Source: Terebella lapidaria
Lineage: Eukaryota; Annelida; Polychaeta; Terebellida; Terebellidae
NCBI GenBank assembly: GCA_949152475.1
Contig: OX424555.1
Span: 97,125,515 to 97,189,514, forward strand
Direction: 5' to 3'
Length of the DNA stretch: 64,000 nt
Shown here: piece by piece, positions 12,171-55,047 of the stretch
How positions within the stretch are numbered: the stretch's first letter is position 1
How the letters are laid out: each line of letters begins with the position of its first letter
The notes under the pieces: generated by a model
Database searches by the model: none
What the model saw: only the letters and a program-made list of their open reading frames with translations
Told to the model about the DNA's origin: nothing
Program-made: the position numbers and the translations under genes

Positions 12171-12825
12171 AGCATATATCATTTCCTAAATGTCCACAAA
12201 TGATTCCTAAGCTGTAAAGTCGATAATAAGCGAGATCATTTCCTATATGCCCAAAATTGATCCCAAAGCTGTAAAATCGATAATCAGTGAAATATTAGCC
12301 ATTTTGTCCTGTGACCTTGAAAATGAGGTCAAAGACCAAATTCAAGGTCATGACAATCTGCATATATCATTTCCTATAAGTTCATAATTGATTCCTAAGC
12401 TATAAGGTCGATAAGAAGCGAGATATTAGCCATTTTTCCTGTGATCCTGAATATCAGGTCAAAGGTCAACTTCAAGGTCATCAGAATATTCGGCGTAAAC
12501 CTTTTTCTAAATGTCCACAATTGATTCCTAAGCTGTAAAGTCGATAATAAGCGATTTATTAGCCATTTTGTGCTCTTGACCTTGAAGTGAGGTCAAAGGT
12601 CAAATTCAAGGTCACGAGAATATTCAGCATATATCATTTCTCATATGTCCACAATTGATCCCTAAGCTGTAAAATCGAATAATCTGCATATATCATTTCC
12701 TATATGTTCATAATTGATTCCTAAGCAGTCGATAAGAAGTGAGATATTAGCCATTTTGTCATGTGACCTTGAAAATGAAGTCAAATTCAAGGTCATCAGA
12801 ATATTCAGCATATATCATTTCCTAT

Positions 12826-13817
12826 CTACCGTTACTACGCAAACTCCGACTAATCGGAGACTCTAGCGTACGGTGCGCAGCTGGAAACATACAAATTATT
12901 AAACAAAAACATATTCACAAGCGTTTAAAACCAGCTTTTGTAACTAGAAATGTATGTACATAGATTGAGAGGATCTACATGGGTTTAACTGTAGTGCCAG
13001 CGTGTACTGCTATAGAGTGTTTTGAAGGAAGCTAAGGTGGGCGCTAGAACTACTTGTGGGGGTAAGGCATTCCATTGGACAACCGTACGTGGGAAAAATG
13101 ACATATTGTGTTGCTGCAAGCGTGTCGGTACCTGGATGAAACAGTATGGATGTGTGTGCCTGGTATGTCTTGTTACGGGGGTGAGATAGTGGTAGGGGTC
13201 AGTGGTTACTGTTTGGTGTACCATTTTATATAACAGAACAAGGCGACAGTGGAGGCGTCTTGTCTGGAGTGGGACCCACTGGAGCTGTTCCAGCATGTTG
13301 GAGACACTAGACGTGTTATGGTACCGATGGAGGACCCATCGAGCAGCTCGGCACTGTACCATATCCAGGCTTTTGATGTTGCTTGCCGTGTATGGATCCC
13401 ACACCGACGCGCAATATTCCGATTGTTGGCGGACAAGTCCGAAATAAGCCTTTTGTTTGATGGTGGGGGAATGGATACGTAGGTTTCTTTTAAGAAAACC
13501 TAAGGTACTATTTGCCTTTTTTGTGATGTTACTGATGTGTTTGTTCCAGGAGATATCGGAGGTGATTGTTATGCCTAGGTACTTCATACTTGATACTGTT
13601 TCGAGCTGATGGCCTCGTAGTGTGTAAGGTACATTGTACTGTTCTGTTGAGTTAAATTTGATTACTTGGCATTTATCAGGGTGAAATTCCATTTGCCAGA
13701 GTGATTCCCACTTTTCAAGATTTATGAGATCGTTTCGCAGGGTGTGTGTGTCGGAGGTGTTTTTTATTTTGCGATATATGATTGTGTCGTCGGCAAAGAG
13801 TCTGACTTCAGAATGAA
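12826..13817 (-). mobile_element. 5'-truncated LINE fragment (LINE-B) nested in palindrome-ended element
   Basis: The insertion is flanked by CCTAT direct repeats (12821-12825 and 13818-13822) and is absent from copy 1 at the matching place (near 6225). On the minus strand it encodes only the C-terminal half of a reverse transcriptase, starting at the FADD active-site motif, and is followed by a short 3' UTR. Loss of everything upstream of the palm motif is the usual 5' truncation of target-primed reverse transcription. No poly-A tail is visible at its 3' end (12826 side). The protein resembles CR1/L2/Rex-type LINEs and differs from the LINEs at 1-2999 and 40988-46035. Confidence 0.82.
12985..13816 (-). 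pseudogene. LINE-B reverse transcriptase C-terminal fragment
   Basis: An open frame runs from the insertion edge through LFADD near 13800 and continues in frame through 13692 to a stop at 12985. Recognisable blocks are KCQVIKF, the KYLGI motif and SDISWNKHI (thumb), then the conserved C-terminal region with QRRAARWV-like and WNALPP-like motifs. The frame is open over about 277 codons, so the fragment is relatively young. It lacks the endonuclease and most of the polymerase domain and cannot be functional. The copy is not expressed from any promoter I can see. Confidence 0.85.
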
Positions 13818-16800
13818 CCTATATGTCCACAATTGATTCCTAGGCTGTAAAGTCAATAACAAGCATGATATTGGCCATTTAGTGCTCTGACCTTGAAACT
13901 GAGGTTAGAGGTCAAATTCAGGGTCACGAGAATATTCAGCATATATCATTTCCTATATATGTATAACTGATTCCTAGTCTTTAATCTCAATATTAAGTGA
14001 AATATTAGCCATACTGTGTCCCATTATAAAGCATAGGAGAACTTAACATGGGAAAGTCCCATTTGGGCCGAGTTTGGGCCAAAAATGGCCCATTTGGAGT
14101 GATTCAAGGGCAACGAAAATTATACATGTCACAGAGGTACACACAAGGAGTGTTATGAATGAAAGAGAAAAAAAATTAACGAACAGTTTTTGAGAAAATG
14201 GCCGCCAAATTCCAACTTTGGGCGTTTTTCGACGAAAACGGCCGCCATTCTAAAAAAAAAGTGAAATTAAAAAAACTAAAAAATACCTCCTTCTCGATAT
14301 ATTTTTAGCCATATTTCTGCAAAATTTCAGAGAAATTCGATCGTAAACTTCAAAGATAAAATTGTTTACGGACGGACGGACGATGGACAGATGATGGACG
14401 GACGATGGACGGACGATGGACAGACAATGGACGGACGACGGACGCAATGCCACGGCAAGAGGTTATCGGACCATAGGTCCGGTAACCTAAAATTAAATGG
14501 GTTCTTTTGAGCTTCTTATTTGTTCCTACGGAGCATGTTAACTCTTTCTACTTCTAGTGTTGCCATTATGGCTTTGGACATACATTTTTGGTCAGGATTT
14601 GTTTCTATTCAATATGTGTTTCATAATAAAAATGCTACTGACATCATCAATCTCTTGTGGCATTCATAGTAATAGATTACCAACATTTAAACTGATTAAT
14701 TTAAGACAGTTTCGTCGTCTGTAGATCCGTGTGTATAGATCCGGTTTTCCAGCACCAAATCACACAATATTCACAGATATGAAAATCAAAATGTTTCCAG
14801 CTCAACGTGTTTTTAGTTTTACAGAGCCATAAATGATGTAGTGACACTTTGACGAAAACAGCATATGTATGAACTACTGTAGCAAAAGTCTATATGATGT
14901 AAAACTTCCCACTGGATGCCATGTTGCAGGACCTGGAGGTAGCTACGGTCAACATCAAGAATGATATATCATGTCATTTCTTCCAAACCTTCATAGCGCT
15001 GCTGATATAAATGTGTCAATGTTGATGTAGGACGGGTGACATGGAAATTTTTTTGCCATACCGCTGTCGAGGGTCGTGTCAGTGTAAGGACTTTTATCAT
15101 ATTTATTCCGCTCAGACTGACAGGGACGGAAGTGGATTGGATCTTTTTTGCTGTAACGAAATGTATATATTTTTCATCATGATATATACGGGAATGGAAT
15201 CTATCATGCTCTGACTTGTTGGGGACTGAATCATGCGTTGAGAATGGTTGCCAGTTGTGCAAGAAGTGGATGAAACATCATTCATAACCCAATTTGCAGT
15301 GGATCAAGGTTAATCAATCAATACTATATGTTAACTGCTTTTTTTGTGTGTCAATGTATACAATTAACAATTTCGGTGGACATTACGCTTGTGGTTTGCT
15401 ATTATTTTGAGTTTCGTACGAAATTTCGACACATTTGGCTACGAAAAAATACCTGTAGGTCTGTTGTATCATTGTATATGGTAATTATTGGATAATGAAT
15501 ATCGTGTCTTCTCGGGCAATTGTCGGTCAAATTTTCTATTTTACCTAAAAACACTTCTGATGGTATTGAATTCAAAAGGCAGTTAATAAAATATTGCTGA
15601 CTAGATTCTCATGAATTCTATATATCTCTATTCTGAAATGTTGGCTGAGATGTGGATGTGCTTCAAGAAATATTTCATTGTGGTTTTATCTTTCACCAGG
15701 AAAGGATTTTGCATATTTGTTTGTGCATTACATAATTTGGTGTATATAGGTCCAAACTGTGTTGGATCAATCCTGAATTAAGACTGTGGTATTGAAAACA
15801 GCACAGCATGAATGGATGACGGAAGAGAAAGTACTGTTAAATGAGGCATCATAGTAATTTCCAGTGGCGTGTTTATGTTTTTGTACCACAGTGACCACTT
15901 TTCAGCATCACTCACATCCAGACCCTCGAAACTTTTTGGGCCTTACTCTACTTTCCATGTCAACCATTCTCTGGGAAACCCAACCCACAACATGCACTAT
16001 CGATATGTCATAATGTTCCATTTTAGTCGTTCCTACTTCAGTCTGAGATCGTGAATGGAACTGATAAAGGACCCGAGAAAACAACATACTTAGAACCATT
16101 GAAAACATTCTTCCAACATTTCTGAATTTAAATCTATGCATGTAATGCATCACTGGTGACTTTGGGACCCCTAAATATCTTTCAGCACTCAGCTCGTGTT
16201 CTGGTGATGTATGAAGCCGTCGCTGTGTATTTTCTATCCTTGGTTGGATGAATGGTGCTGGTGGACCACTGTCCGAACCCTCTGTCACAAGATTCTTCTG
16301 CTCATTCGTCAATTGCAGAAGTTTCTCACCCATGTGTGGAATCCTATAACTTAATTTGGGGAAGATCGTTAATACCCGACACTTTGAGCGAGAGGCATCG
16401 TGAAATGTTGTTATCATTTGTCCAACGGCTACATCCCACTGACGTATGGTGTATGTTTGTTATCTTGGGTATTATCATTTGGAGAAGTGTGATTTTGAGA
16501 CGGGTATAGATGGAACCACAATAAAACTAATGTAGATGGATATGTTTTAAGTCGTGACTGAAAGTGAATTGATTCCTTTGGTGGGGTCTGTTTTGGATTT
16601 CTAAGTCTGCAAGACACCGGTATATAACTAGTGCACAGTCAAGATAACAATTGCCCATAAACCATCGAAAAACTCTATAGCCGGACACAAAAGAAAGTAC
16701 AATTACCACCAGAAGACAAAAAGGCAGGAAATCGTATGTTTCTGAAATAAATGGTACAATAGGACAAAGAGCACTTAGAGTGGTACCAGTTCTGAGACTC

Positions 16801-17012: not shown

Positions 17013-18983
17013 ATATATAGGCCTCAAAATCTCAAACTGTCGATATGAAAACATAACATGATGTTTCATGAACAAATGTAGTACTTGTATAAAAATGTAA
17101 CTTCATTAAATATCACCCGGATCTAAATGTGTGACTGATGAATATGTGACACATTGCTTTGTATGTTGTTTCAACTAGGCTTCATACACATCTTTAAAAA
17201 TGGCATGAATTTCTGATATTGAAACTTGAGAAGAATGACACACATTTCCAAACACACATTTCACCTCGGTAACTAACGAATGAGCAGAAGAATCTAAGTG
17301 ACAGACGGTTCTGAGACTGGTTAGCGAGCACCATCCCTCCACACAATTCCAGATAATACACAGTGATGGATTCATCTATCATTGATTTCGCTTTGTGAAA
17401 AAAAAACTTTCCTTGTAATATAGTCACTGTTTGGGCAATAAATTATTCTCAGTATCCTCGACTTGAAAATAGTTCTTTAACGCCATCTATCTATTATTAT
17501 GTTATTTTTCTTTTCCACCATACACAATCACGAAATGTAGATTTATTTCATATCAAAACCAATTTATTACATTATAAAATATAAAGTTAGGACACACCAA
17601 CGGCAGATTCAGCACCAACTCGGCGCCGAATACAGTCTGTTTCATGTGTATGCTGGTATATGCCGAATTGTCATGTAAAAACACAATTCGGTGCTGCACT
17701 CACGGTAGACCATTTAGACCTATCTTAAACATTATCTTAAACATTACCTATTACCACTGCACATACATCTATCTGAAGAAGCAGCACGATGGACTGCATG
17801 AAATGTATATGGTTATTTCGAATTTGCTGCATGTTTGAATTACCTGCCCTCGTTATTTCTGTTAAATATGCTATTGGTCAGCACTGGATCATCTGGTAAA
17901 CGCATTTTGAAGTGGAACGGGAAAAACTGATACCTTTAACAAAACCGAGAAAGCACGTACATATACATATCATACGAGTCATAGATGACTATTTGAACCA
18001 AAGGATACCTTCCCTCAAAGACTTTCTGGTAGACTGTGTTTGAATATATTGACATAATGCATAGTGCATAATGTATCACTTTGGCCAACATTTGCCTCCA
18101 ATTCAACATTAGAACTCATTTATATTTTGTTTCCAAGAACTTGTAGGGAATGGATAATCTTTAAATTAATACTATCCAGATTTTTTATCGTTGGTTTCCT
18201 GTGACAGAACACATGTTTCACTCAGAATTTGATGTTGTTGAAGAATGAGCCAGAGAAAGTAACAGACAGTTCCGAGAGTGGTCAGCGAGCACCACTCATC
18301 CACATGGAAACAAGACACAGACGTGTCTACATCACCAGAATATTTGCCAACCTTGAAATGTTAATGTCAAGAAAAGTGAATTGAGCTTACCACCCTTTGA
18401 CCAGAAAAATCCTTTGACCAGAGAAAAATTAAACGGGTTCTTTTGAGGTTCTTATTGGTTCCTATGGAGCTCTTTCTATTTCTAATGTTGCCATTATGGC
18501 TTTGGACATACATGTTTGGTCGATATTTGTTTCTATTCCATATGTGTTTCTTATAGTAATTCTACTGACATCGTCAAATTTTTGTCGCACTCATGGTAAT
18601 AGATTACCAACATTTAAACTGAATAATTTAATGCAGTTACGTCGTCTGTAGATCCGTTTGTGTAGATCAGGTTTCCCAGCACCAAATCACAATTTTCACA
18701 GATATGAAAAAAATGGTTTCCAACTGCTTGGCTCAACTTGCTTTTAATTTACAGTACCATAAATGATCGAGTGACATTACTGGTGGACGTTAATTCCGTC
18801 CCCGAGGATACCATCAACTCAGTAACCTTTTGGCTTGTGATTAGGTACTTATGTACTTGTCATATATCTACTCCATGGGGTTTGTTTCGGATTTGTAAAT
18901 TATTTTCATAGTTTGTTGGGCAGTTGTATACTAATTCCATCAAGTGTACGGTAGAAACAACTACATTTACCACAATCTCTGCC
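17013..18983. repeat. Long tandem repeat unit C, first part
   Basis: It starts with the same 'atataggcct' block as A and B and follows them with several deletions. It lacks the palindrome-ended element and shows its empty site (gagaaaaattaaacggg, about 18421-18437). From about 18840 it matches 59050-59230 in unit E and then enters the roughly 200-bp dispersed block. It stops at 18983, exactly at the left junction of the 17.5-kb insertion. The unit resumes at 36528 on the other side. No gene is supported here. Confidence 0.75.
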
Positions 18984-19383
18984 TAGCACTATCAACGGGC
19001 AGAGCCCTATCGCACCATATGATCACAGTTTTCAAAACAACAAAGTTGTCAAAAGACGCGAAGTTTGGTTCTATGTGTTCCTACCTTCATCAATAAACAT
19101 AAATATACAAGCTCACACGTCCACTTTCCACTACAACACTCAGAAGATCAGTTTTTATTGGCATGTTATCAACTGACAATTCTCCGTGTGGTTTTGAAGA
19201 TGTTGACGCTAAATGTGGGGAAAACCCACCGGTAATACCGACTACTACCGTACTTTCCCGAATATATACGGACATAAATAACATTTCTCAGCCTTTCTCT
19301 CCGGAGAGTTCTAATGAAAAGAGGATCCGACAAGATTAGACACACGGATTATCAGATTATGGCGTTTTATCATCAGCTGGTTT

Positions 19384-22300
19384 ATGCATGATGACAGCTT
19401 TTCTGATATGGATGTAGATGAAGATTGCGAGGTGCATTGTGTCATTTGTAACAATGTTGTTGACAAGAAGAGAAGGTGTGGGTTTGGAGCAGGACTGCGA
19501 GATGTCGAGGGTACTGTTTACAGCGCCCTCAACGAACTATTCAGACTGGACCTTACACCCATAAAGGCTGGGACGGGCAGTCAGTAAGTGCACATTTTTA
19601 TTTGACAAAAAATTTGGATTTTAGGCATGTGCATAGGCTACATATATGTATGCAGCATTAGAACTGAACCTGTTGCTACCTTTAATAGTCTGTGAGATCA
19701 TCCTGGTCATGATCCCAGTTCACAAGATTATAGTCTAGCCACTGTGCATAGTAGATCATGTCAGGGAAAATATGATAAAAATTCCACTGAGTGAAAAATC
19801 AGTGAAAAATATCTATTTTTAAATATATCTAGATATATGTATTTTGTGAAATTTATAGTGCATGTACATGTATCATGTTGTTGAATTTACAATTGTGTAT
19901 GTATTTTGTGTGATAATTATGGACACTTTTTTGTAGATATTTGTGCCGATCATGTTTCGGCTTTGTTTCCACTTGCTTGAAGAAGAAGAGGGAATTGGAC
20001 GGGAAGTTCTCTGAGGCAGCTTCTCTTTCGAAAAAACGCAAAATGTCCCCTCAGAAAACACTTGTTCGAAACAAATTGCCAAGGCTGTCGAGGACACCAA
20101 TATCAACCAGCAGGAAAAAGCTGAAGACCCCTCTCAAGAGGCGAAAAAGACAAGTAGGAAATTCAATATTATTATAGATGTACTCATCATCGAAATATGT
20201 AATCAATACATAAAATTTTTGATGTTTATTCATAAAAAAATGTGTTGATATTGAGAATTTTTTCGTTTTAACAGCGCGGAACGTTTTTGGAAAGGGCCAC
20301 TGATGTCTTGGTGAATCACCAGCACCGCAGAGCCCTAAAAATAATGATGAAAAACTCATTCAGAGCTTCCACAGAAATAAAGCAAGTTCTGATAGATGAG
20401 GTAAATCATCAAATAAGTGTAATTCAATATATTCTGTGTTCCAATACATGAATGTGATCATGTAGGTACACAGACACAATGTAAATGTATTTAGTGTAAC
20501 TGAATTTGTGCATGAAACATGCAGATACGGGAAGAGGTCCGGGGCTATGCATCAATTACCAATGCAGACTTGGCAGGGAAACTGAACAGGGAGACATTGG
20601 AAGCTGTTTCTTGGGACGAGGTGGCAAAGAATGTGAAATCTTCCATGCCTTACCTCTTCGGAGCAGTTTCGGCAGTGACCCTGACCCACGAATAATCAAG
20701 TAAACGGTAATATAAAATCACTTCTATAAATATTTTCATGATTAAAATGTTAACTCTGAATATTTTTATGATACTTTTTTTAAAGTAATTAGGATGAAAC
20801 ACTGTTTTCTTTTTACTTTGTCACCAAACAGGCAGGATGTACTTCCAACAGTGGTATTGGCCATTTCCATGCTACTGTATCGAGCAAGGCCCTTTAAGTG
20901 GAGGTTCGTTTCATACAATTTGGGAGTCATGCTGTACAGAGGGGGATGCGCGAAGAAGGTACAATCATAACTTGTAAATGGCTTCATAGGCAACACAAAA
21001 TCTCAGTATTGATCTGTGTAACAGTACGTAGGTAGTTAATTTTCAATAAAATTTGAAAAAATATTGAAAAACATTGTTTTTCATGCAAGGATAAGTCATC
21101 ATTTTCCTTACCAAGGCAAACACTGTTTTCATGAGTTTGAACCTAAAGTTATCATGGTTATATACATGTATATCATGCCATTAGTTGTCTTTTTGGTAGT
21201 TTCAAATCCTAAATTTTCTTCACAGATATCTTAAATTTGTGTTGAAAAGTTTCCAAAGATAATTGTCCTGTTTCTTTGTCATTTTTTTAGGTTACCGGAC
21301 CTTTGGTCCGATAACCTATTGCCGTGGCGTTGCGTCCGTCGTCGTTATCGTCCGTCGTCCGTCAACATTCTTATCTTTAAAGCTTATGATCGAATCTTCC
21401 TGAAATTTTGCACAAAAATGCTTAAAAATATTTCGAGAGGGAGGTATTTTTTAGTTTTTTGATTTTCGGATTATTTTCAAAATGGCGGCCATTTTTGACG
21501 AAAAACAGCTAATTTTGGACTTTGACGGTCGTTTTCTCAAAAACTGTCTGATCAGATTTGAGATTTTTGTTTCAAAAGATTCTCCTTATGTACCTCTGTG
21601 ATGTGTATAAGTTTGGTTGCCCTTGAACCGCCGGTCTGCGTATGGCGGCCATTTCGAATTTTCGACGGGTCGACGGAAAAAAAATTTTCCGGCCCAAATC
21701 GCATTACTATCCATTTTGGGCTATTTCTAGACAAAAAAAATTTGTCCACCCTTTGAAAAAAATTTTGGACACTTTTTTCCTTCATAATGGGAGCTGCCGG
21801 GACTGTACTCCCAGAACGCCTGAAGATACAGCTTAGAAATTGGTACTTTCAAATGGGAAGTCATATATGGCGATTTGTGTGGTGACCTTGAATTTGACCT
21901 TCGATGACCTTGAATGGTCGGAACAGCCATTTTGGGGTAAAAAAATGCCCAGATTTGCATCTATAGATGAAAAGCTTGCATATAGAACTCATGTTTGCAT
22001 TATGAACATATAGCAAGACATATATGGCACAACTAATGATGACCTTGATCTTGACGTCAGATGACCTTGAGTACCAAATGTCTGACTCGTAATGTGTAAA
22101 TTGACCTGAGTGGCCTAAACGATTCCACCCAGATATATCTTTGTATTATGAACATATAGAATATCAAATGCCGGACACATACATGTAATGGTGACATCGA
22201 AGTTCACACGGATGACCTTGATTGGTAAATCTCGAGGTCATTTGTTCACACTGCGAACCTTGATTGGTAAATCTCAAGGTCTGTTACCTGCCAATGCTGC

Positions 22301-25300
22301 CATGGCCAAACCAAAATTGTCCGGTAACCTGTCTTAGCCTTTGGGCTAATTTTTTTCTACCGGGTACATAGCAGATTAGGTGTGGCCTTATCTGCTTATT
22401 TTAATTTGTGTCACGAGTACAGCTTTTATTAATGCAGACTGTATCAATCACAATGATCACAATATACATATACCGGTACTTAAAGACATATATTTCTATG
22501 GATCAAATATTGTCTACGCAACAACACTGGATAAATATCGGTGATCAAATTGAAAACAAAATAAAACCAAACATGAACTACATAAAACATGTGTAAACAC
22601 AAATAAATGAGCAATGTCCTGCAGGGTACATGTAAAATGTTTTTGACCACACGATGTTAACGTTACTGTTGATCAAATTCAAGAGAGCAGTTCATCTTCC
22701 CAGTTTTCTTCCATAATTGCTTTGCATTGACATCTCTTCATACAAAGTGTACAGCACTTGAGTAGAGGGCATGAAGTGTCATCCCCGGAGCAACTCTTTG
22801 GATCCAGAATGCTTAGATCTTCCATTTTTTCAAGCAGCAACTCCTCGAGCAAAGCTTGTCGCAAACAGGGATGATGTTCTCCATCGTCCATGCTCTCAGC
22901 TTCCTTCCCTGTCATTTCGGGCAATGATGTCTCATCCGTTTGTATACCCTTGTTCTTGATTTTTGATTGCCGCCTTGGAATTATGCCACCCAACTCCTTC
23001 ATTTTGTCGGTGAAATCTGTGTCATGCAGTTTATGGTAGACCAGTCCAGTCACAACAAACAAGTGTCCGACTCCTGGACTTCCATCACGTGCAGCCAGTC
23101 CGATCTCCTGCCATTGGCTCAGGGCATTCTTGCTGCATCCCCAGTGAATGACAGCGTGGATGTCTGGAATGTTTATTCCGAGGCCAAAAGCTACCGTAGA
23201 CACAAGTACACGAATGACACTATCCGATTTTGGAAACTCTTCTTGTACATATTTCTTGGTATTTTCTCCGACGTTGGCATAAAACACAGCAACATATCTC
23301 TTTCTGTAGTGTCTCTCGTTGTCCTTATAGCCACTCAGCTTGAGCCTGGATGAGAGGTAGCTGAACACATCAGCACAAGCACTCGTGGTTGGGCAGTAGA
23401 TGATAGTCTTACGCAGTTGATCTCCTTCCTCTTTTATGCTATCCACCAGCCAGTCAAGTTCATGTAGTTCTATGTCTGACTTGCATGTAAACTTGAGGAA
23501 AATATTCGGCCTGCAAGTAGAAAATGTCACTTGAATAACATGGTAGTATATCACTTGGTTGTATTACAGATTTTCCATTGTCTGCATCAACTGGGCCTCT
23601 GTCAAACTTATGGAGCTTCCCTTGCCACTGCTGACAGAATTGGAGAGCAATGCACCCGCGAGCTCATCAAATGGCAGAAATGTTTGGAAGTATGTCAACG
23701 TCAGATGTGTTGTTATTATATTGAAGAAACAGAATATTGTGGATATGAGTGTTTTCATCAAATGGTTTTAAATGAATGCTCCATATATGATCCTGAGGTT
23801 TATGTACATGTAGGAGTTAAACTACCACATAATTCATCTTATTTTGGATTTAGAGAAAAGATGAACAAGAAGTTGAGACTGGCATGACAGCAGAGGAAGA
23901 TGCCGGTGTTATGCAAGATAACATCAGTGAAGACGACTTGTTTGCAAGTGATGTTTCCAGTGCATCCTCAAAAGATGTAGATGAGCTTGAAACTGCCCGG
24001 TCGGAGGGGATGAGAGCAAAGCGGCTCTTCAAGCCCACCAACCATAATGACAGCGATGAGATTTTGGCTGTGCCATTGGCAGATATCCCTGTAAAGGCTG
24101 GTACGTGTTGTATGTATGTACAGTATGTGTGATCTATTCTAATGGAACTTTTTTTTTCGTTTTGGGTTGCAAGGAAAGTGGGGATAGGTATGTTTTCACT
24201 TAAACATGGGGAAAACATATTTTAGCAACACTGGTATATAAGTACTACAATGTATCGACAGGCATACCAAGCTTCAGCATGTGCTTTGACAATGTGGGAC
24301 TTGGAGAGAGAACAAGACATGAAGGGCAGGCGACCAAGAAGACCCACATCTGGACGTCAGCTTTCGCAGTTCAGAATCGTGTTCATTATCAAGGGTCCAA
24401 TGAGCGAGGATCGCCTAGGCGTTGCCTGGAAATGCCGCTTCAAACTTTCATGCCCACGGAGGAGGACCAAAACGGCAGAAAAAACAGGATGAAAGTCATC
24501 GTAAGAAGGATTTTGGTTTCTCATCTCAAATGTTTCCAATTCTGTCCTTCACCGAAGAGGATCTTCCACTTGAGGAGATGGATAAAAAATCTCACATCGT
24601 AACAATCGGAATTGTGCCTTGCAATCCAGGCTCATCAGAAGGGTCACACGAGGTACTGGATCGCCTCCATCACTTCGTTCCCTTTCCCGATGGACCGCGA
24701 CGGGAACCGACACCCATACCAGTCCATGGTGATGGAGCAAGTGTGATTGGCATGATGGCAACCCAAAGGGCGCGGAGAGCCAGTGTCACGCCAGCAGAAC
24801 GGTTGCAGGGCATCATCCCAGTTCCTGGGGAATTACATCGCAGGATGTTGCTCAATCTGGACACAATGAATCTCCTCTACAAAGCAGATACGTCCACATC
24901 TCGAGGCACTCTGGCGAACATTCGTACTGTCTTCAACCTCCGAAGCGTCAAACCGAAAGTGAGCGAGTCTTTCAATCATATCGAAGATATGTTGAACTTC
25001 ACCACCAAAGGACTTGTATGTATTGCAGCCCTGGAATTGCTGCAACTACAGAGCCTAGATGACAGTCTGGAGTCCAAAAGACCAGCAGCAGTGATGTCTG
25101 CCCAGAGCAAGATAGAGGAGTTGGAACGTGTGGCAGAGAAAGTAACCAATTTATTTTGGTTCAGGACGCCCGCCTCTGATGTCATGAATGTGGTTGAAGC
25201 CGACACAGAAGAAGACACAAAGTACTGCCACTGCCAAGAACCATGTGGTATGCATCAATAAAATTAGATGTGCACATATTTTCATCCCTAATCATCTATA

Positions 25301-27707
25301 ATCTGCAGTGATTGTCATTCGATAAATAGTTGCTGGCCAAATTTTAAATGCAAATTACAAATGTCACAGGAGATTTTGAGATGGTCGAGTGCTCAAACAT
25401 TGGATGCTCCAAAAGTTGGTTTCATCTTCCATGTGTTGGACTCACTGAGGCACGACCAGATCGGAATCGTTTTGCAGTGATGAGTGTGGCACTTCTGGAA
25501 GAAGCGGCTGGTGTCTATGCAGGTCCAAAAAAAGTGAAGTATTGATTGAGTGCCAGGCGAAAGATGACTGCAGCAGAGGACGACTCTTCCATCCCAGCTG
25601 TGTAGGATATGTGCAAGAGCTATTTGAACCAAAAGGTGGGACAATTCATGAGTTAATTTCTGTTTAATTACATGTTAATATACAATTGTAGTATTTAAAC
25701 TGAAAAATATATACATTTATATTTCATTCTAGTTCTGCTGTGATGACAAGGATAACTATGTTGGTAAGAAAGTCTGAAGGGTGCTTTATTGTACAGTGTA
25801 TATTTTACTTAGAACTGGCTTTTGATCTTCACCACATTCTGCCTTGCTTTATTTGTGCTTATTTCTGTATCACATTCATGTGGCCACACTGTACAAGCTA
25901 AATGAATGTGCATGTACACATGTAATATACTACTAGTCATGCATCTGGTAACTCTTTCTTGTGATGACATATATGTACATGTACCTTCGCTTTCCTGCAA
26001 ACTCACATAACATGGTGGTTGAATGTATGTATTTCCTTGGACATGTGGTACTTATTTTTATGTTTTTATATTGCTTAAACATAGACTAGTGGCATATTCA
26101 CATGTGCCTGATTCGTCACAATGGTGACAACATAAAATGTACCTACAATCATGTTTTCTCCTACATTTGGTTATTTACTTTGACATAAAATATCCAGTGA
26201 TATTCAGTTCATTTGAAATAGTACTTTGTCATACATTGTACAAGCATGGTACATCATACTGTCAGCACAATAGCACTAGTACAAACATCCTTATGTAGTA
26301 TATGCCATTTTTCTTCTCTACAATGTCTGCAATAGTATGACTTACCAATAACCATTTTAAACATTTGTGACTTTCTGAAACAATTATGACGGAGTCAATG
26401 ACCTAAATATGTATGCCACAAACTTAACATAAACTAACCCCCAATTCATCTGCTTAATTTATTGAATGTGCAGGGCGAGGTAGAGTGTGCAACATGCCAA
26501 AGAATTGGTGGTGTAGCACTCAGTGCAGGAAGATCAGCGGCAAAGACTCGACCCACGACAGAGTCCAGGAATATTCCCGAGCCCTGGGGTTTCGAGGTCT
26601 CCTGGACATGGCTGTACGGGATATAATCAGAGAGGGGGGTGGGCCAAGTATGAACGCGGAATGGAGACTTTCCATGCCTCAGTACTCCAGTCTGAACCAT
26701 AGGAATTACTTCCAAATCGGCCACATGCTTCTCTCTGGTAGGCCATATTGTTCAAATTACTTATTTATTACAGTGTACATAAATGTGTGTGTTTACATCT
26801 TAACCATTTATGAACAAGTTTTTATTAATGAAATAAATCTATGTTCCTTACTGTTTAATATATCATGCATAACATTTTCATATACGATACATGTATTCTT
26901 CAATAGGGGTCAGTGGGGTCTGGCCAGAGACTATCCAAGAAGCAGTCGTATGGAACAGGACAGTGAACGAAGCTGGAGGGCCAAGCAGGAATATTCCTAT
27001 GGACAGATACAATGAGTTCATAAACAACGACTTCAAAAGTAACCATCTTTTTTCCATTCATAAAGACCCTCTCACAAATGACATGTATAGTTATTTCCAA
27101 ATATTATTTGTTAAATCCTCCCCAAAAGCAATTAAAATGACTGAATTTAAATTCCTTTTGTATCCCATCTATACAAGTACAATGTATATGAATACATCAT
27201 GTAATTGCATGTTTCCACCTCCCTTGATTTCCTTTGCTGTGTTGAACAGGGATGCTTCGAGACTCCAATAGGAGATACACAGCAAGGCACGTGATAAGAG
27301 CAGGGCGTCTTGCAGGTGCCATGGGGAAGTCTTTGGACAGATTGTTCGTTCAACAGGTGGCCCGGACATATATGCCTGGACGTCGCAAGACAGTGCAGAG
27401 AGAGACCACACAGCATGACCTAGTTGAACAGTTCGTCACAACGTACAAGCCACAGAAACTTCTGACGAACATTGGAAGCCGTCGACACAAGGGGTTCGAA
27501 ACATTCCAGTACAACCTGGATATCAAGTCCACTGCGAAAATGAAGGCCTCCTTGAACAAGCATTCAGAACGCCAAGATGAATTTGCAGACAACCTTCCAT
27601 CAGACACGGAGGACAGTTGTGAAATAACCCCACCAAACGCCTGCACAGGAGGGCTAGAGTCCAGTTCGGAATCCGAACCAGGAGATTTGGACATTGCCAA
27701 CATTTAA
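19384..27707 (+). CDS. DUF6589-like transposon protein with N-terminal zinc finger and two PHD-like fingers (13 exons, decayed)
   Basis: Predicted exons: 19384-19583, 19937-20153, 20275-20400, 20525-20699, 20832-20958, 23570-23689, 23854-24100, 24262-25247, 25370-25635, 25733-25763, 26474-26737, 26907-27038, 27250-27707. Junctions use GT-AG. An N-terminal Cys finger spans the first splice (CVIC ... CRSC). Exon 5 has the VVLAISMLLYRARP block, exon 8 the FDNVGLGERTRHEG and HGDGASV...RLQGIIPVPGELHR blocks that recall DUF6589 proteins. Exons 8-9 encode PHD-like fingers (CHCQEPC ... CSKSWFHLPC; CLCR ... FHPSC). Exon 12 has WNRTVNEAGGPSRNIPMD, and an acidic tail ends at 27705-27707. Breaks: TAA at 20693-20695 with a phase mismatch consistent with one lost base, a shift near 24540, a shift near 25470, and a bad phase into the 31-nt exon. 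Likely the mobility protein of the surrounding element; catalytic residues are not identified. Family recognition is from memory of conserved blocks. Confidence 0.68.
21289..22348 (-). mobile_element. Palindrome-ended element, copy 3 (reverse orientation) in a transposon intron
   Basis: The left end reads AGGTTACCGGACC followed by its own inverse (GGTCCGATAACC), and the right end reads GTCCGGTAACCTGTCTTAGCC, the reverse of copies 1 and 2. It is flanked by ATTTTTTT on both sides (21281-21288 and 22349-22356), an 8-bp apparent TSD. The interior keeps GTCCGTCGTCC repeats next to the palindrome and degenerate GATGACCTTGA units, the complement of the AAGGTCA arrays in the other copies. It lies between exon 5 of the DUF6589-like gene and the last helicase exon. 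It diverges clearly from copies 1 and 2. Confidence 0.8.
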
Positions 27708-30700
27708 GATGGTGAAACCCTGCCGATTGTTGGCAGTAAATTTCACGACTTTAGTACCGCATACAAAATATGAGCATTTGTCACAAAACTTCTGGTAGTC
27801 CGAAGTGACTTTTTGCAGTTGGAGTGAATAGAGGAGTCATTTTCTTGTTTTAGAAAAATACAATCTTCGACCTGAAACGTCTGGACCATTCCGGATAATA
27901 ACGATAAAGTTGGTACATCCGTTCTCAATATCAACCACGTAATATTTAGAATACATCGACTTTTTACATAGTGGAGCAGTCAGTGTCTATGAGCCGAGAA
28001 TTACTTTTTGAATTTACCGCCTACATTTGTCACAAAATGCCCGACTGTCTTTGACACATTTACGAAATGCGCCATTTTCAAAATATCACGTGGATTTGGA
28101 CAACACACAGACTTGAAATATCATCTATTATTTTGATGATTTTCAAAGAATAGCTGACTTACTTGGGATTGGTACATCGTAGACTCCATAACGAGCTATC
28201 CACAGCCATGTGACATTGCGTTTTCCCCCGTAAAATTGAGTCTGAACATCGGCTACTTTCAACGTCAGGTGCCACGAAATCGTGTTTACATATTTCCCAG
28301 GTCAAAGTTTAATGTATCCTTACGCGAGACTTATCTTTGGTCATGTCGATTCTGGTAATCTGTCTAATCCATTGATCACACCAAATAATCCACTTTCTGG
28401 ATACTGAACGGGACTATGTTCACAGTACGACACATTTACATGTGTTTTGTAATATCAATTGGTAGCGGTCATCCTCGGAATATTTCCTTCGGTTGTGAAG
28501 ACCATATTTTGCGACTATGAGATTCGGTAGCTTCGTCTCCAAATGTTTTCCCGCGAGGCACCAACACTCCCATGTGTTATGCATGTATATCGGCATATGA
28601 CGGAGGTAATCCCAGAATTATGTACATAATCGAAGACATATTAGTTCATAGACAAAGAATTGTTGTAGATCGGGGAATGACAAACACTGAAAACCATGTT
28701 TCCAGACGATAACTGACATATCGCTCACCACGTGAGTTTGTATTCGCTCCGGTGAGAAAGCCGTTGAAATCCGTGCACGGAGTTTTGAGTTCAATGTGAA
28801 GAGCAATACTCACTAGCTGCTCAAGTCCAGTCTCGGTCAGTGATCGCATGCAACCACACGGAAAATCGTCGAGCACATGTCCTGGGGCGGATTATTAACC
28901 CTCTTTCGACCCTTCTTGCACATTGGGAGTTCATTTTCACAAATAGGTAATATAATATTATATTTGTTCAGGTACGTACACGTAATTTAAGCATTCTGTA
29001 TATTGGAGCCCCGTCTCTATCAACACTGATCAAGTATCTATGAGTACCTATTCCATAAGTTCGTGGTTAAATACATTTCGATAACAAAATGAAACTGTAT
29101 GTAGATGTATATCTATATGTATGTCAAGAAATTTAAATCAGTGCCCTGATTGGCACAAGTATATAAGGTTATTATCAATAAGCAGCTATATGATAATTCA
29201 TATCACCAACATATATATATTTCTTCTCTAAATCAAGAAGTTTACTTGATTGTAATATTCCAATGATCAATTCAAGGCAATGTGATTGGTATCAGCAACA
29301 GAATAGAGTGCCATGTGACAAATCCATCATCTCATATTTTTCTGACTCCAGATGACTCCAGATGTTGCTGACAACTCCACACCACTTTCCTGACAGCTCA
29401 GCCAGAAGACAACACAACCAGAAGCTCCATAAATCCTGGTTCAAGTCTCAATCAGAAGACAGGCAATAGCAGCTCCACACCACTTGACTGATCCCCCAAT
29501 GACAGGCACCCAGGAGCAATCATTCAGTTGGCCAACAATATGGATGTCAAAGCATAACAACAACTTGTGTTTTGAAGTTTGCACCAATATATACATGTAT
29601 ATTAAAACAATATATATATATAAATTCAAATTAAGTGCATGTTGGATCTGTAATTCTGAAACACCTGTAGAGAATTGCACACCACCATTTTGGGTATTGT
29701 AATGTCACTATAAGGCAATTGGATATCTTATACAACAGCAATTTGGGGATTCAATGGCCAATTAATAATATTTTCATATTTTATATTTTAATGGATAAAG
29801 TGGCCAACACATTGTATGTATCAAAAATTTGTTATTGATACACATGTGTAGGTCAGAAATACATTATGAAGATTTGAATGGCAGTGTATCAAGTGGCCAT
29901 GTGCAATAATGTTTGCCAATTATGATAAACTCATAATCTTTTTGATTGGTATTATATTTGATTTATTTTGTTCTTGTTTACCTTCCATGTACAAACTTTG
30001 TAAGATAAACATATGGATAAGGAGTATACTACCAAATACACTATTTATTCATGACATTTCTTGTCTGGTATGTTTGATATCATACCTGTGATCCATGTAT
30101 GTCAAAAGATGAATTGTACTAATAAAATGCTACCACTGTGTGAATTTCACATCAATTATGTTGACACAACCCATGTGCAATAATGATACTTTAATGTCAC
30201 ATGTAATCATGATGACAATGAATCGAAAGCCTGGTGATATCTACATTTACATGTTATTGGGATCAGGATGTATCCTGTATCTAGCTTGGGGTTTGTGTTC
30301 TTTGTATGCATAGACCGAGCATTATGCACAATAGGGTCAGTGAAGACATACATGTACTGTTAGTTATTCGATGACCACAGAGTGTTATGAATTATGCCAA
30401 ATGCAAGAAGATGTTACTTCCCCAGAAGTTTTAAACTTATAACTGTCACTTTGGAAATACGGGTTATTATTTGCATTGATCAGGTGAATAGAGTAGTGTC
30501 ATGGCCCAATGCACACAGAAGCCCTAGCATGTAGCAGTCTACATGTAAAGGCCAGTGTGAATTGTGCACAGTGGAGCATATGATATTGAAGTCTCCCTCT
30601 CACTGTGGCAGTGTCTTGAAGGGTTAAAAAATAGTGCCTGTGCTGGCCACTTGGGAAAATTTTTTAGTTGTCCATAAATGTCTGAACTTCATAAATCATT

Positions 30701-33700
30701 TGTGATGCAATGGATTTGAATTTCAAAAAAATATTTCTCGGCTCATAAACTAGCATATGTAGTAATGCTCAGAAAAATACTAGGAACATTCGTAATCGAC
30801 TTTTTCCACAAGAACGGATGTCCCGAAATGTTGGTAGTCAATTTCACCAATTTTAACATAAGATGCATAATAACTGCACGTAAAATGCTTTAAATTAGTT
30901 ATTAACATGATAATATAACATTTATGTGAAATATGTGTTCATTTCTTCAAGAAAAAACATTTTCAAAAATATTCAGTGCGCATCACTGACTAAAATATGG
31001 CGAGGGTAACAACCCCTTAAGAGAAACACAGGCATTTCATGACCTGAAAGTACATTTCATACAGAGCAGGATGATTTAAACCAAGTGCGAGTGCATGTAA
31101 TCATGATAAACATACAATGGTAATTGAGGAGCATGCATTTTCTCAGTGCTGAGTTATATCTTTTCATTCATGTATATGGACCTGCCGTTTCCCATGTTAG
31201 ATTTCTTTATCATTCAAAATCATTTAGTATTCATTGTTGTTGTATTATTATTTTTAGTACTATGAAGGTTAGGTATTTAGTACAAGATGTTACATGTACC
31301 TGTCGGGAAGAATTGCAACATGTGGAATTTACTGAATTCCAAATGACACTAGAAGTTCATCTCGAATTTTCTTGTTGCATGTTGCTGTCAGAAGACACAC
31401 AGGTCAGAGCCCCTGCAAAAAAAATATGGACTTACAAAGAGTATTCATCATGGGGTTGTTTTTTTAGCCATTATTGTCAACTGCAGGTCATCTGAGTTTA
31501 TTCACCAATCAGAGATGCAATGGGCTTCATCATAAACAATGGACAGGAGAGATGTTGTCCATGGCTCTTGGCGTAACATTTTTCTCCACTCTGTAGAAAT
31601 TAGTGCCTCTGGAGAACTCATGACTATACTATGTCTGCACAGTTTAATGCCTGCAAAAGAAGTTGACAATTGGTTATGATCGTCATCAGCATACTTCAAT
31701 ATCTGCATTCATTGAATTGTAAGTGGCAATAAAACATCGGTGTGTTTGAAGTGATATTCATGCTTATACATATTTAGGACGTCACCAAATGCAACGATAT
31801 CATCAGAGAAAATATGGTGAATTTGCGGTGTGGTTGCTCTTTCCTTATATCAATATACTGCCTATAGTCGTTTTCACTGAGTTTTTTAGCTCACCGGCTG
31901 AAAGCCGTGGAGCTATTGGGATGGATTGACACGGTGTCTGTCGTGTCTGTCCCATGTTTTCCTGACTCAAATCTTTCAGAATCTTCTCCGCCGAAAGTGC
32001 TATTGCTATTGAACCCAAACTTGGCATACTGTTCGCTTATTGGATGCTCTCCAAAGTAAAGTATGCTTCGGTGAAAATTCCATAAGTTTTCTGGAGAAAT
32101 TTAACGATTAAACATTAATTTTACTATACATGTGCTCTTGTTTATACATACGGGTTGTGGGTGGAAGGTCAGCGCATGCGCAGAGGGGACATTTCAATTG
32201 CAAATAGCGAATGTTTGTTTACCTTCGAACTTCCACCAAGAAACACGATTTATCGGGTCATAACAGTTCTGACAGGAGCGGATACCTGTGTTTTGTGTGA
32301 ATCATTTGTTTACCTTCGAACTTCCACCAAGAAACACGATTTATCGGGTCATAACAGTTCTGACAGGAGCGGATACCTGTGCGTTGTGTGAATCATTTGT
32401 TATTACATTTCAAATTCCACTGTAGTCCGTATGTCAATGCATAAATATATTTGTTTTGCAGTGTTTAAGGGAAGTACGACCGGAAAATTTCCGATGTTGG
32501 GTAATTTATTTCCGTCAAACTTTCCGAATCTTTCCGACCAACGACGATTTAGCCTATCTATAAACAAATCGTGACGTATCTAACGCATGCGCAGACGGGA
32601 CAATGCGATCGCAAATGGGGATTGTTTATCTTCGCATATCGACCAAGAAACGCGATTTTATCCAATCGTACAATTTTCGACAGCATAAAATACCTGGATT
32701 TGGTGTAATCGTTGTTGATGTTACTGTAAATGCACTGTAGTATGTTTATCAAGTGATAAATATCTCGGTAATTGCAGGATATACAGCGAAGGCACCGGTA
32801 ACAGGGCAAAGATCTATAAATAGCACTGTTCATTGATGACTGCATGACAGCTCGGCCCAAAGACAACTCGGACCTGGACAAGTCGGCCCGGAAAAGACAG
32901 CTCGGCCAATTGCATTGGACCACTTGGCCCGGGCTGATGAGACAAGTCGGCCCGCCGCTAACCTACGCTCGGACCGCGATGCTAGTTTTGTTACGGTTCA
33001 ATTACTGAGTGACGACCGTTTGTGATCGCGCCAAATGATTGCAGATTAGTAAGATATATATCCACTATGTATGAATAATTATTTTGCCATCGAGACGTAC
33101 TTATAAATAATAAATAAGATATACAAAGGCAGGGAATTAACCGACTGTTATCCACTATATGTTGCGTGTTTTTATTGGTTATCCATGATTCAAACAGCAT
33201 GCCTGTAAACATGTGGAAATTTCGATAAACTTATAAACATGTATGGAAATAATAATACAATAATTTTAAAAATATATAACATTGTATATGTTGCGCATAA
33301 TTTCATCTTACACATCGAAAAAATTTCAAGTAAGCAAGTCAAAAGTCATTCAGTAAAGTCCATTAGTCTATAGATAGGTGCCTTGAAATAATCTGTCAGA
33401 TGCAATCATGATTGCAATTCAGTCGTATTGCCTAGAATAGTCTGGACTGGACAGCTCGGCTCAGGGACAACTCGGCCAGGACAACTCGGCCCAGGCTGGA
33501 CAACTCGGCCAGGACAAGTCGGCCCGGCTCGTCCCGTTGATCGGACAACTCGGCCAGCTGATTGGACACGGCTCAGAGGTGGCAGTGGGGGCGGGGCATA
33601 GGTGTTCAGCCTAGCCCTAACTGAGTCGACTATGGGCAATACGACTGAATTGCGTATTATTTCAAGGCACTTAGTACTTATTTATTCAACCTCCCCATGG

Positions 33701-36108
33701 GAGAAATGACAAAAAATTACAAATTATGATGTAAAACATGCAATGACACTGAATATTACTGAATGACTATTCTAGGCGATACGACTGAATTGCAATCATG
33801 ATTGCATCTGACAGATTATTTCAAGGCACCTATCTATAGACAAATGGACTTTACTGAATGACTTTTGACTTGCTCACTTGAAATTTTTTCGATGTGTAAG
33901 ATGAAATTATGCGCAACATATACGATCGTCACTTACATGTACCGAAAAAGGTTTACTTTCTAAATGAAAAAAGAAATATCAAAAACAAGTTGTGATTTGC
34001 ATTTACATCAATCTAAATGTGGTAAATGCAACACAGTTGTATGGATTGAAATAACAATATATACCCACTTTTAGAAATGACAAAATTTGTTCAGTCTGCA
34101 AATAGCTTTATTTTGTCTATAGAATGAGAATTCATGCAAATTTTGGTCTGAACATATATGTATTGTGTGCCTAAATTGAGTTGACAAGATTCAAACTTGG
34201 GCTAATCAATTTCGCATCCATTTTTCCTCAGAGCGGCCCGCGCAGTCTTATGATATCATTGGTATTAATCTAGATACTGTGGCAACCGGCAATGAATGCA
34301 GGCCGATCATTCTCTATCCGATGTTTTCAGGCACAGTTAATGGCGATTTTCTGATTATCTGTCATCGAATTGTGCCTAGTCTCTATTTATTCCTGACGAT
34401 ATCATCTCAAGATATACTAGTACTTCAAGTTTGCATGACGAACAAGAATGCTAGATTTGGCTGATTTAACTTTAAAACAGGGAAGGAGAAGTAAACTTTC
34501 ATACATGAACTTTTCACTGGCATCGATGGATACATTGGCAAAGTACATGAAGTACACAACACACTGATCATCGTTGTACTAATAGTTCTAATAGATTCTG
34601 GTAAAAATCCCTCGTGAGACATTGGTGGTAAGAAAAGTGGGGGTGCTGGAAGGTAGAGTGGTAGTAAGCATGCATCAGCAAATTCTTCATTCCTCTTTGA
34701 AACTTTGTATTTTAATATTTTCCTCTTTGAAACTTTGTATTTTAATGATAGTGATACTGTATTGTAATCCTTGTAAACTACTCATTCCAGAATTTTTATG
34801 GTTTTTTTTGTGTGAATTTTTTTTTCTTTGAAGAATCGCCATTTATTTATGATGGGAAAGAACATATTATGTAGACTGTGAATGTTGCATGATATGGTGC
34901 CTCTTTTGGTAACCTTCACAAAATGTATTTATTGTATAGGTCTGCACTTCTCTGCAGGCAAATCTTGAAAGCTGGAAATGTAGTTTGGATATACATGGGG
35001 ATTCATTGTACAATGTATGTTATATTATATTATACTATCGTTTGGTGACCCTGAACTTGATGATGGCATTGGATGAATGTCAAGTTTGAGTCAACAACAA
35101 ATGTGGGAATTGTTCCATATCGACACAACTCTGTTAGAGTTAAAGCTTAGTGTTGTATTACAAAGTCATGATGACATAGGACCACATTATACATGGATCC
35201 TGTGTTAACATGGTTAAATACCACCTGGTTTGAGAGACCACCCTGTGTTTTGAGACCACTACACTTGGTCCAAAGTGGCCTTTTATCATGTAAATGAACC
35301 TGTCATGAGAGACCACCTGTCATTTAATACCACCTTTTTGGGGTCCCTTGGGTGGTCTTAAAACACAGGATCCACTGTACTAGTAACTATCAAAATCCAT
35401 TTGATGAAATATTCTGGTTGCCTGATAATTCCGGTGAGCTACAGGGCCCTTGGCCCTATGTTTTCCTCATAATTTCAATATATATCCATGCTTTATTTCA
35501 TGAATATTTTATGAATCCACTCTACTCACGCTCTACTTCTTCTTCTGTCATGCTGCTCCTTTCTCCTATGACACCTGTGCTGATATTCATCTGTTCATTA
35601 TGCTTTCTCTGGTCAGCAATAAGGGACAGCATCGGTGAAACAACAAGAACTGCATGATGGACTTCTGGTTCAAGCTAAGGAAGTGACAGTAGTTTAATAT
35701 TAATTACTACTATATGCTGGAGAATATATATGGAATTCCATTTTAAACTGGCTACATATCTGGCACGATATATATGTGTTATATATGACTGAACTGGGTA
35801 TATACATGAAAGTATGGTAATTTAGTCAGAGCTTCATTTATTTCTTAAATTTATATTGAGACAGAAGTTTTCGTATAAAATACATTAAATTAACCATTTG
35901 TTGCTCTAAAACATTTTACCTTGTCCATTATCAAAGGTGCCAATTGATAGATGAAGGATTTCCCATAGCCAGTTGGAAGAACACCTAAAACATGTTCTCC
36001 ATTGCACACCATGGTCAGCACCTTCAATTGTTCTACCTTCAACTCATGACAAAACACACCCCTGAAGTACTGTTCATATGCTGAATTGATATCTTCCTTG
36101 TTAAACAT
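22679..36108 (-). CDS. RecQ-type ATP-dependent DNA helicase, multi-exon, one core exon not found
   Basis: Minus-strand exons: 35920-36108 (start MFNKED; Walker A LPTGYGKS), about 35530-35664 (motif Ia VVSPMLSLIADQ), 31506-31650 (SPEALIS, then the DEAH box in YDEAHCISDW), and 22679-23510 (RPNIF, motif IV TIIYCPTTS, motif V STVAFGLGINIPD, motif VI QEIGLAARDG, then a Cys-rich tail with CCTLCMKRCQC). The order and motifs are those of RecQ helicases, which unwind DNA 3'-5'. The segment carrying motif III (LTATA) and the region up to RPNIF is missing between exon 3 and the last exon. Exons 3 and 4 are phase-compatible without it. Motif VI has L and A where RecQ has R and G. The phase from exon 1 to 2 is off by one. 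It probably assists transposition or repair of the host element. Confidence 0.72.
27708..31505. other. Non-coding interval inside the giant transposon
   Basis: This is downstream of the plus-strand gene and within the largest helicase intron. I looked on the minus strand for the missing helicase motif III exon and did not find an LTATA-like block. The sequence is AT-rich, with ATATAT runs near 29205 and 29610 and short degenerate direct repeats around 29340-29500 (e.g. 'agctccacaccactt'). No supported gene, TIR or known repeat core is seen. Confidence 0.5.
31879..32165. mobile_element. Possible short element with AGCTCACCGGC...GCCGTGGAGCT palindromic end
   Basis: Near 31887 the sequence TTTTTAGCTCACCGGCTGAAAG is followed by its near-inverse (AGCCGTGGAGCT) and then ATTGGGATGG. 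This terminal hairpin followed by a GTCTGTCGTGTCTGTCC tract resembles a common invertebrate repeat family with AGCTCACC ends. I cannot place the distal end or a TSD, so boundaries are approximate. Confidence 0.4.
32216..32396 (+). repeat. Two-copy tandem duplication, period ~91 bp
   Basis: The block starting 'ttaccttcgaacttccacca' at about 32219 recurs almost perfectly at about 32310, and both copies end in 'cggatacctgtg.tttgtgtg'. A third, diverged relative lies near 32583-32670 (GCATGCGCAG ... gaccaagaaacgcgattt). It is non-coding and lies in a helicase intron. Confidence 0.8.
32849..32956. repeat. GACAACTCGGCC-type minisatellite-like tract
   Basis: Irregular repeats of 'gacaactcgg', 'gacaagtcggcccg' and 'gacagctcggcc' occupy this GC-rich island in otherwise AT-rich DNA. 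The same motif fills the loop of the inverted repeat at 33284-33923, which suggests a related element. Confidence 0.6.
33284..33923. mobile_element. Inverted-repeat element: ~159-bp arms around a GACAACTCGGCC core
   Basis: The arm at 33284-33442 (starting GTATATGTTGCGCATAAT) is nearly perfectly inverted at 33765-33923 (ending ATTATGCGCAACATATAC). The 320-bp centre holds about eight copies of ACAACTCGGCC or ACAAGTCGGCCCG at 33450-33560. It also holds a third, shorter copy of part of the arm around 33625-33672 (CAATACGACTGAATTG ... ATTTCAAGGCAC). The arms are long and similar, as in a foldback transposon. No clear TSD was identified. Confidence 0.72.
34691..34746 (+). repeat. Short tandem duplication (30-bp period)
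   Basis: The block beginning TCCTCTTTGAAACTTTGTAT at 34691 is repeated exactly at 34721. It is non-coding and in a helicase intron. Confidence 0.8.
35190..35379. mobile_element. Small MITE, Tc1/mariner-like (190 bp)
   Basis: The ends are inverted: TACATGGATCCTGTGTTAA at the left and TTAAAACACAGGATCCACTG followed by TA at the right. Both ends are bounded by TA dinucleotides. The interior has repeated 'gagaccacctg'-type motifs. The length, TA bounds and short TIRs fit a non-autonomous mariner-type element. It sits in the helicase intron between exons 2 and 3. Confidence 0.65.
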
Positions 36109-37385
36109 GGCTGATTATTTCGATTTACCCGGCTTCTTTCCAAAATGAATTACTGTTGCCCAATGAGTGTCTCTTTTTCGATAGTATTCTTGTTGAAATA
36201 GTGCTCCACAAAACCACGGCCTCTGATTGGCTGTTGAAGTCATGTGACCTGTGGCCATTTTGACATCTCAAACAAAAACCACCGATGAACAGCAGCAGAG
36301 AACAAAAATCTCAAATCTCCTCAAATGTGTGATAACATTGGTGTCAAGTACATGAATTTGAAAGAGAACAACCAAAACTAGGTTTGTGACACGTCTATTC
36401 AACTGCAACCCCATTTGTGTAGTCATAAACCGTGACCCACTGTGACAGGGTGTCAGGCGAAAACCGTTGTCAGCTCAGGAAGGGACTAGCACTTAACTCT
36501 GTTATTGCGGCTGAACTAATCTCTGCCCCTGGTGACGCCAGTGTGTCTTTTGATAAAGTATTTGGTCGGGGTTTGTTTCTATCGGGGTTTGGTCGGGGTT
36601 TGCAAAATGTTGAATTTTACGTTTGTTATTGGAATCATCAAAATTTGGCTGTATTGGTGATAATAGATACTTACATTGTAAAAAATTGCATATGTACAAA
36701 CTTCTGTAGCAAAGGTCTATTTTATGTCAAAATTCCCATTGGATGCCATGTTGCAAGACTTGGAGGTAACTACGGTAAACATCAAGAATGATATATGATG
36801 CCGAACCTTCATAACGCTGCTGATATAAATGTGTCAATGTTGATGTAGGACGGGAGACACGGACATGTTATTGCCATACTGCTGTCGAGGGTCGTGTTAG
36901 CGTAAGGACCTTTCTCATATTTATTCCGCTCAGACTGACAGGGACTGAAGTGGATTGGATCTTATTTTGCAGTAACGAAATGGTTATATATTATGATATA
37001 AACGGGGATGGAATCATGCTTTGGCTTGTTGGGGACTGAATCATGCAGTGAGAACGGTTGCCAGTTGTGCAAGAAGTGGATGAAACATCATTCATAACCT
37101 AATTTGCAGTGGATCAAGGTTATTCAACCAACATGGTAACTGGAAAATCTATGTGACACGAATTGATGTTGGAAAAGAAATTTTTGGTTAATAAGGCATT
37201 CTAGTAATTTTCATAGTAATGATCAGTTTTCCGCAACTCTCACAACTCTCAACTAGAACCTTGGTACTTTTTGGGCCTCATTCTACCTTCCATGTTAACC
37301 ATTCTCTGGGAAATCATGTTCCATTTTTGTTGTTCCTGCTTCAGTTTGATATCATGAATGGAATTGATTACGGACCCGAGAGAAT

Positions 37386-45606: not shown

Positions 45607-46035
45607 AGGCCCACTGTAGATTTACCCAAATTCACTCACAAAAGGGGTCACAGTCAACAAAGTCACCAAAGCATGGCGATTAAGGGGCATAAACAATGTA
45701 TGACCCTCAGCTTGTCCCGTGTAGAGTAAAGTTCTGATCACCCCAATGGGCCACGGTTGTCACGGCGACCAGGACACACAAGCCCTGAGCAATGGGCGAT
45801 AAATGGTTGTCTGGAACTTATGCCAGCGATCCAGAGACACTCGTGTATTATAATCCAGTAAAGTCCGATGTATCAAATAGATACAAGTCCCGTGTCATAT
45901 GTTGACACTATATCCATGTGATTAATTGCTATAAATAGTCTATAATTGGAGACAGAATTCCGCTCGAGCCGTGTAGTACCTGAAAAACAAAAAGTGATAT
46001 AATCTTCTATATTATATCACTATAGCATAGTTTCT
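45607..46035 (-). promoter_or_regulatory. 5' untranslated leader of LINE-C
   Basis: About 430 bp upstream of ORF1, within the element, is expected to hold an internal promoter. I see no TATA box in the right place. A near-palindromic 'agtgatataa ... ttatatcact' pair lies at 45992-46021 near the 5' boundary. The boundary itself is inferred from resumption of unit D sequence (gcatggcggcagctgcaaca) at about 46039. Confidence 0.4.
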
Positions 46036-49140: not shown

Positions 49141-49142
49141 GG

Positions 49143-54998: not shown

Positions 54999-55047
54999 AA
55001 CGTAAGTTTTTTTCAGTGCAGCAATAATTCAGTCCAAACACATGTTC

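Follow-up and report, generated by a model that had tools for sequence, protein, structure and literature searches.

Interlocked DUF6589 and RecQ-Like Helicase Genes in a Probable AcademH-Type Transposon of Terebella lapidaria

Introduction

Why should a gene matching Pfam DUF6589 and a gene for a RecQ-like helicase lie together in one insertion, and what kind of element would carry them both? The question is raised by a locus in a 64-kb stretch of DNA from Terebella lapidaria; this whole stretch was analyzed and is called the window here. An initial annotation had proposed for this locus a single, self-contained transposon bounded by a target site duplication (TSD), with a DUF6589/PHD gene, a RecQ-like helicase gene, and no visible terminal inverted repeats (TIRs). 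The analysis presented here bears out that description and addresses the family to which the element belongs, the arrangement of its two genes, and what their products might do.

Results

The Insertion and Its Ends

The inserted segment is 17,534 bp long (18984-36517) and has an exact 10-bp duplication on either side. The features that define it are as follows.

18974..18983, plus strand, left TSD copy, AATCTCTGCC
36518..36527, plus strand, right TSD copy, AATCTCTGCC
18984..36517, no strand assigned, inserted element, 17,534 bp, left end TAGCACTATC..., right end ...GGCTGAACT
59045-59352 (plus strand), 46451-46643 (plus strand), and 38496-38294 (minus strand), repeat copies matching the joined flanks by alignment
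63870-63722, minus strand, fourth repeat copy, starting only ~4 bases to the left of the duplication

The duplicated 10-mer occurs exactly twice in the 64-kb window, at these two positions, where 0.12 matches would be expected by chance, and none of 100 shuffles contained two. The duplication is exactly 10 bp, because the adjacent bases differ on both sides of the repeats. When the two flanks are joined, they align over the junction to the three other repeat copies that have at least 60 bases to the left of the duplication. The joined flanks thus form an unbroken repeat of the kind found elsewhere in the window, and this is therefore a true insertion. At position 4 of the duplication both flanks have a C, in contrast to the G found in all four other repeat copies. 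The initial annotation had pointed to direct repeats around an interval that interrupts a repeat block, and to a diagnostic C common to both flanks; both observations hold. The duplication and the empty-site alignment together therefore indicate that a repeat was already present when the 17,534-bp segment inserted into it and duplicated 10 of its bases. The window also holds three large tandem copies, diverged from one another; the target repeat lies within the third and is absent at the matching place in copies 1 and 2.

No TIR could be detected above shuffles in the 400-bp ends, as the initial annotation had remarked: the best inverted alignment score is 14, inside the range of 200 shuffles (mean 12.7, maximum 22). 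Neither end has a second copy within the 64-kb window. By eye, CAGAG can be seen at a distance of 17 bp from either end, inverted in one case, and TAGCACT at the left end, recurring near the right end.

Inside the element, 114 ORFs of at least 55 aa were listed, many of which overlap the two genes. Ten further ones were tested and none has a Pfam match above cut-off, so that, as far as this test reaches, the DUF6589 and RecQ-like genes are the sole genes of the unit, again as first proposed. Two repeats lie in their introns.

21280-22358, no strand assigned, nested repeat in intron 5 of the DUF6589 gene, outside the core element
33281-33926, no strand assigned, foldback repeat in helicase intron 2, 162-nt arms, ~98% complementary

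The first is a reverse-orientation relative of repeats at 5435-6888 and 11228-14499, and the second is probably a nested insertion. The length of the element is partly due to these repeats, and the copy now looks decayed. The foldback is part of a longer repetitive stretch of helicase intron 2 (32173-33926) that also holds a 91-bp tandem pair and GGACAACTCGGCC arrays.

The DUF6589 Gene

The gene on the plus strand was modeled as follows.

19384..27708, plus strand, DUF6589 gene, 13 modeled exons, probable transposase
19384-19583, 19937-20153, 20275-20400, 20525-20674, and 20836-20958, plus strand, exons 1-5
23570-23689, 23854-24100, 24262-25247, and 25370-25635, plus strand, exons 6-9
25733-25763, 26474-26737, 26907-27038, and 27250-27708, plus strand, exons 10-13
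24262..25247, plus strand, exon 8, with the candidate catalytic acids FDN, GDG, and GELH
25216..25480, plus strand, PHD finger 1, ING-like, across the exon 8/9 joint
25488..26540, plus strand, second Cys-rich block, PHD-like by pattern only, read by eye

The DUF6589-like gene seen in the initial annotation is recovered by Pfam, with E=1.4e-14 from one exon alone and E=1.5e-25 from a read-through protein model, which covers profile positions 8-380 of 410. Translated together, exons 1-7 and 273 bases from the start of exon 8 yield 485 aa free of stops, and all 12 modeled introns are bounded by GT-AG, at splice sites that we picked so as to fit the reading frames. The reading frame changes at two places, about 24.53 and 25.47 kb, and in the model exons 9 and 10 do not join in phase; mutation, faulty assembly, or a faulty model could each account for these breaks. 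We do not count as a lesion an in-frame stop that one version of the model placed where exons 4 and 5 meet, as alternative GT-AG sites leave the frame open.

We consider the DUF6589 protein to be probably the transposase of the element, a reading made from its sequence. GDG and GELH fall within the Pfam match and FDN lies ~50 residues ahead of it; that the three supply the catalytic acids of a DDE triad is a guess. DUF6589 is the sole match of the read-through protein at E≤0.1; the Pfam transposase domains of MULE, hAT, and other modeled transposases gave none. A search of the protein collection with the transposase model returned no relatives at E≤0.001 (8000 and 2347 candidates scored), by a method that requires short words in common and can overlook divergent relatives. 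The exon 8 piece gave pattern matches in viral and genome contigs, none of them confirmed by tblastn, and a word search of one open-access library found DUF6589 in no paper.

The PHD finger that the initial annotation placed in this protein turns out to be ING-like. Its best chain match is png2 (E=1.4e-8), an ING-family protein, followed by ING3 (2.6e-7), while the Pfam PHD model gives only E=0.03, below cut-off; its last cysteines lie beyond the frame change. The H3K4me3 pocket of ING proteins is lined by tyrosine, methionine, and tryptophan, and all three are found in the alignments of PHD finger 1 with ING-type chains. The second Cys-rich block has no Pfam match at E≤10.

The RecQ-Like Helicase Gene

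The second gene lies on the minus strand and has five modeled exons, whose motif labels follow RecQ motif naming.

35920..36108, minus strand, exon 1, with ATG and Walker A (GYGKS); Pfam DEAD E=1e-4, just below cut-off
35530..35674, minus strand, exon 2, motif Ia
31506..31650, minus strand, exon 3, DEAH box
31333..31412, minus strand, exon 4, motif III (LLTAT), out of frame with exon 3
22679..23510, minus strand, exon 5, Helicase_C (motifs IV-VI) and Cys-rich tail

Exon 5 matches Helicase_C with E=5.3e-11 and the RecQ family model TIGR00614 (recQ_fam) with E=3.1e-19, the latter below the curated cut-off. The four modeled introns read as GT-AG by eye. Its best matches are short RecQ-like proteins from Tubulanus polymorphus (33% identity), Glandiceps talaboti (30%), and Mytilus edulis (33%), all three named as animal proteins. 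A 27-row tree, built from the query and 26 matches that we chose out of 109, groups the helicase with these three and two unnamed proteins (support 98/94). A C-terminal CC..C...C.C pattern is common to the helicase and three of these five neighbors (P0001, P0004, and P0005); P0002 is without the last cysteine, and P0003 stops before it. The RecQ-type helicase of the initial annotation is thus confirmed by domain match, relatives, and tree. Relatives P0001 and P0005 gave pattern matches in viral contigs, none confirmed by tblastn.

The modeled protein is without ~16 residues that its relatives have between motifs II and III and without ~10 residues between motif III and Helicase_C. Its motif III is out of frame with exon 3, and in motif VI it has Leu, while all 14 of the relatives aligned there have Arg. 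The helicase of this copy is very probably inactive, even if the gap before Helicase_C could be due to a small exon that the model missed.

An Interlocked Layout

The two genes start ~0.4 kb inside opposite ends of the element and both point inward. They do not simply face each other: helicase exon 5 (23510-22679) lies inside intron 5 of the DUF6589 gene (20959-23569), and exons 6-13 of the DUF6589 gene (23570-27708) lie inside the 7.8-kb intron 4 of the helicase gene. Since no part is repeated or reversed in either gene model, the simplest reading is that of two interleaved antiparallel genes.

As far as the layout alone is concerned, the interlocking could instead be private to this copy, the result of a later rearrangement in which a block was duplicated or moved, and no trait of the family. 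The decayed look of the copy and the repeats nested in it would suit such a history. On the other hand, each gene has a single set of parts, arranged in order along one strand, the joints carry GT-AG (12 of 12 introns in the DUF6589 gene, and by eye the four of the helicase gene), and by reasoning, no single inversion yields the interlocked order. We give a private rearrangement serious weight, at somewhat less than even odds; it would be compatible with the assignment to AcademH that we favor below as the best explanation of the element.

Other Repeats in the Window

The three tandem copies span 2999-40000, with starts near 3.0, 9.4, and 17.0 kb. In the first two there is a repeat with 134-bp minisatellite arrays; copy 3 is without that repeat, a relative of which lies inside the element at 21280-22358. 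The copies also contain paired minus-strand ORFs of 182-183 aa (8286-8834 and 15908-16459), the first of which has no Pfam match above cut-off. A second DNA transposon (48848-55347) has ~295-bp TIRs (91%), ends CACTGGGTGTAAACC / GGTTTACACCCAGTG, a probable 5-bp duplication TCCCT, and, near 61146, an empty site that is similar without being identical. A minus-strand ORF inside it has a YqaJ/lambda-exonuclease-like domain and also matches a TNP-like RNase H, weakly and below cut-off. At 41114-45621 lies a minus-strand non-LTR retrotransposon with two overlapping ORFs: one has a Cauli_VI domain (RNase H1 N-terminal), and the other is a 1024-aa endonuclease/reverse transcriptase ORF.

Discussion

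Classification of the Element

AcademH comprises transposons of animals and fungi that carry a helicase and make TSDs of 9-10 bp (Kojima 2020, doi 10.1186/s13100-020-00211-1, as cited in PMC10045372). PMC10045372 gives TSDs of 9 or 10 bp for AcademH and 3 or 4 bp for AcademX, a difference that seems related to their helicase and nuclease. AcademH is likewise treated as a group of helicase-carrying transposons in PMC10799480, and PMC9587614 counts Academ among the superfamilies with a DDD/E transposase. The element has a TSD of exactly 10 bp, with its empty site, and its helicase is RecQ-like. On TSD length and helicase, set against the published description of AcademH, it is probably a member, and we put the probability that it is an AcademH-type DNA transposon, apparently decayed, at about 0.8. 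Next to AcademH as so described, the element is set apart by its interlocked genes and the lack of a detectable TIR. AcademX belongs to the same superfamily, but has a nuclease and TSDs of 3-4 bp; the 10-bp TSD found here, beside a helicase, rules it out.

A helicase in company with a transposase is also known outside Academ. According to PMC9587614, some Kolobok lineages encode a RecQ helicase, on the complementary strand in one rhodophyte element, and KolobokH combines it with a DDD/E transposase. A KolobokH-like element would have a helicase of the right type and, as in that one case, on the opposite strand. However, the same paper gives TTAA-specific 4-bp duplications for Kolobok and states that KolobokH is known only from fungi, whereas the duplication here is the 10-bp AATCTCTGCC. 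Kolobok helicase elements are excluded because their duplication is TTAA, unless the duplication observed here stems from some other event, and we attach almost no credence to this reading.

Should the element then be placed in a separate, undescribed superfamily of TIR-less transposons, resembling AcademH only in helicase and 10-bp duplication? The missing TIRs, the lack of relatives of the transposase model in the protein collection, and the absence of DUF6589 from the open-access library searched for the word would be expected of such a group. Against this, TSD length and helicase agree with the AcademH description in PMC10045372, and a protein search that needs shared short words can overlook divergent relatives. 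We think a separate superfamily decidedly improbable. The initial annotation had seen here a candidate for an undescribed system, a reading that is not supported, as the combination of a helicase with 9-10-bp TSDs is already stated for AcademH in PMC10045372. Three points remain for which we found no earlier match: the interlocked genes, DUF6589 as the probable transposase, and the histone-reader-like PHD finger.

A Possible Mechanism

If the DUF6589 protein is the catalytic subunit, it would act as a DDE transposase that cuts the element ends and joins them to the target with a 10-bp stagger, and repair of the stagger would leave the target site duplication. Unwinding or processing of the element ends, or of the gapped joints, would fall to the RecQ-like helicase, and through the ING-like PHD finger the complex may be tethered to H3K4me3 (active) chromatin. 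As a whole, the proposal would be that DUF6589 is the DDE transposase of helicase transposons, that in this lineage an ING-type PHD finger steers insertion to H3K4me3 chromatin, and that the two antiparallel genes are locked together by interleaved exons. We offer this combination tentatively, and consider it rather doubtful that all of it will hold.

If it is true, the pre-mRNAs of transposase and helicase would be complementary over ~5 kb (22679-27708), and this complementarity, or the interlock itself, could keep the genes together in recombination, or serve self-regulation or silencing. The element also suggests what DUF6589, listed in Pfam without a known function, may be, and a possible reason why DUF6589 and RecQ-like genes share one insertion. 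The interlocked order and the ING-like PHD finger are specific predictions for other AcademH elements.
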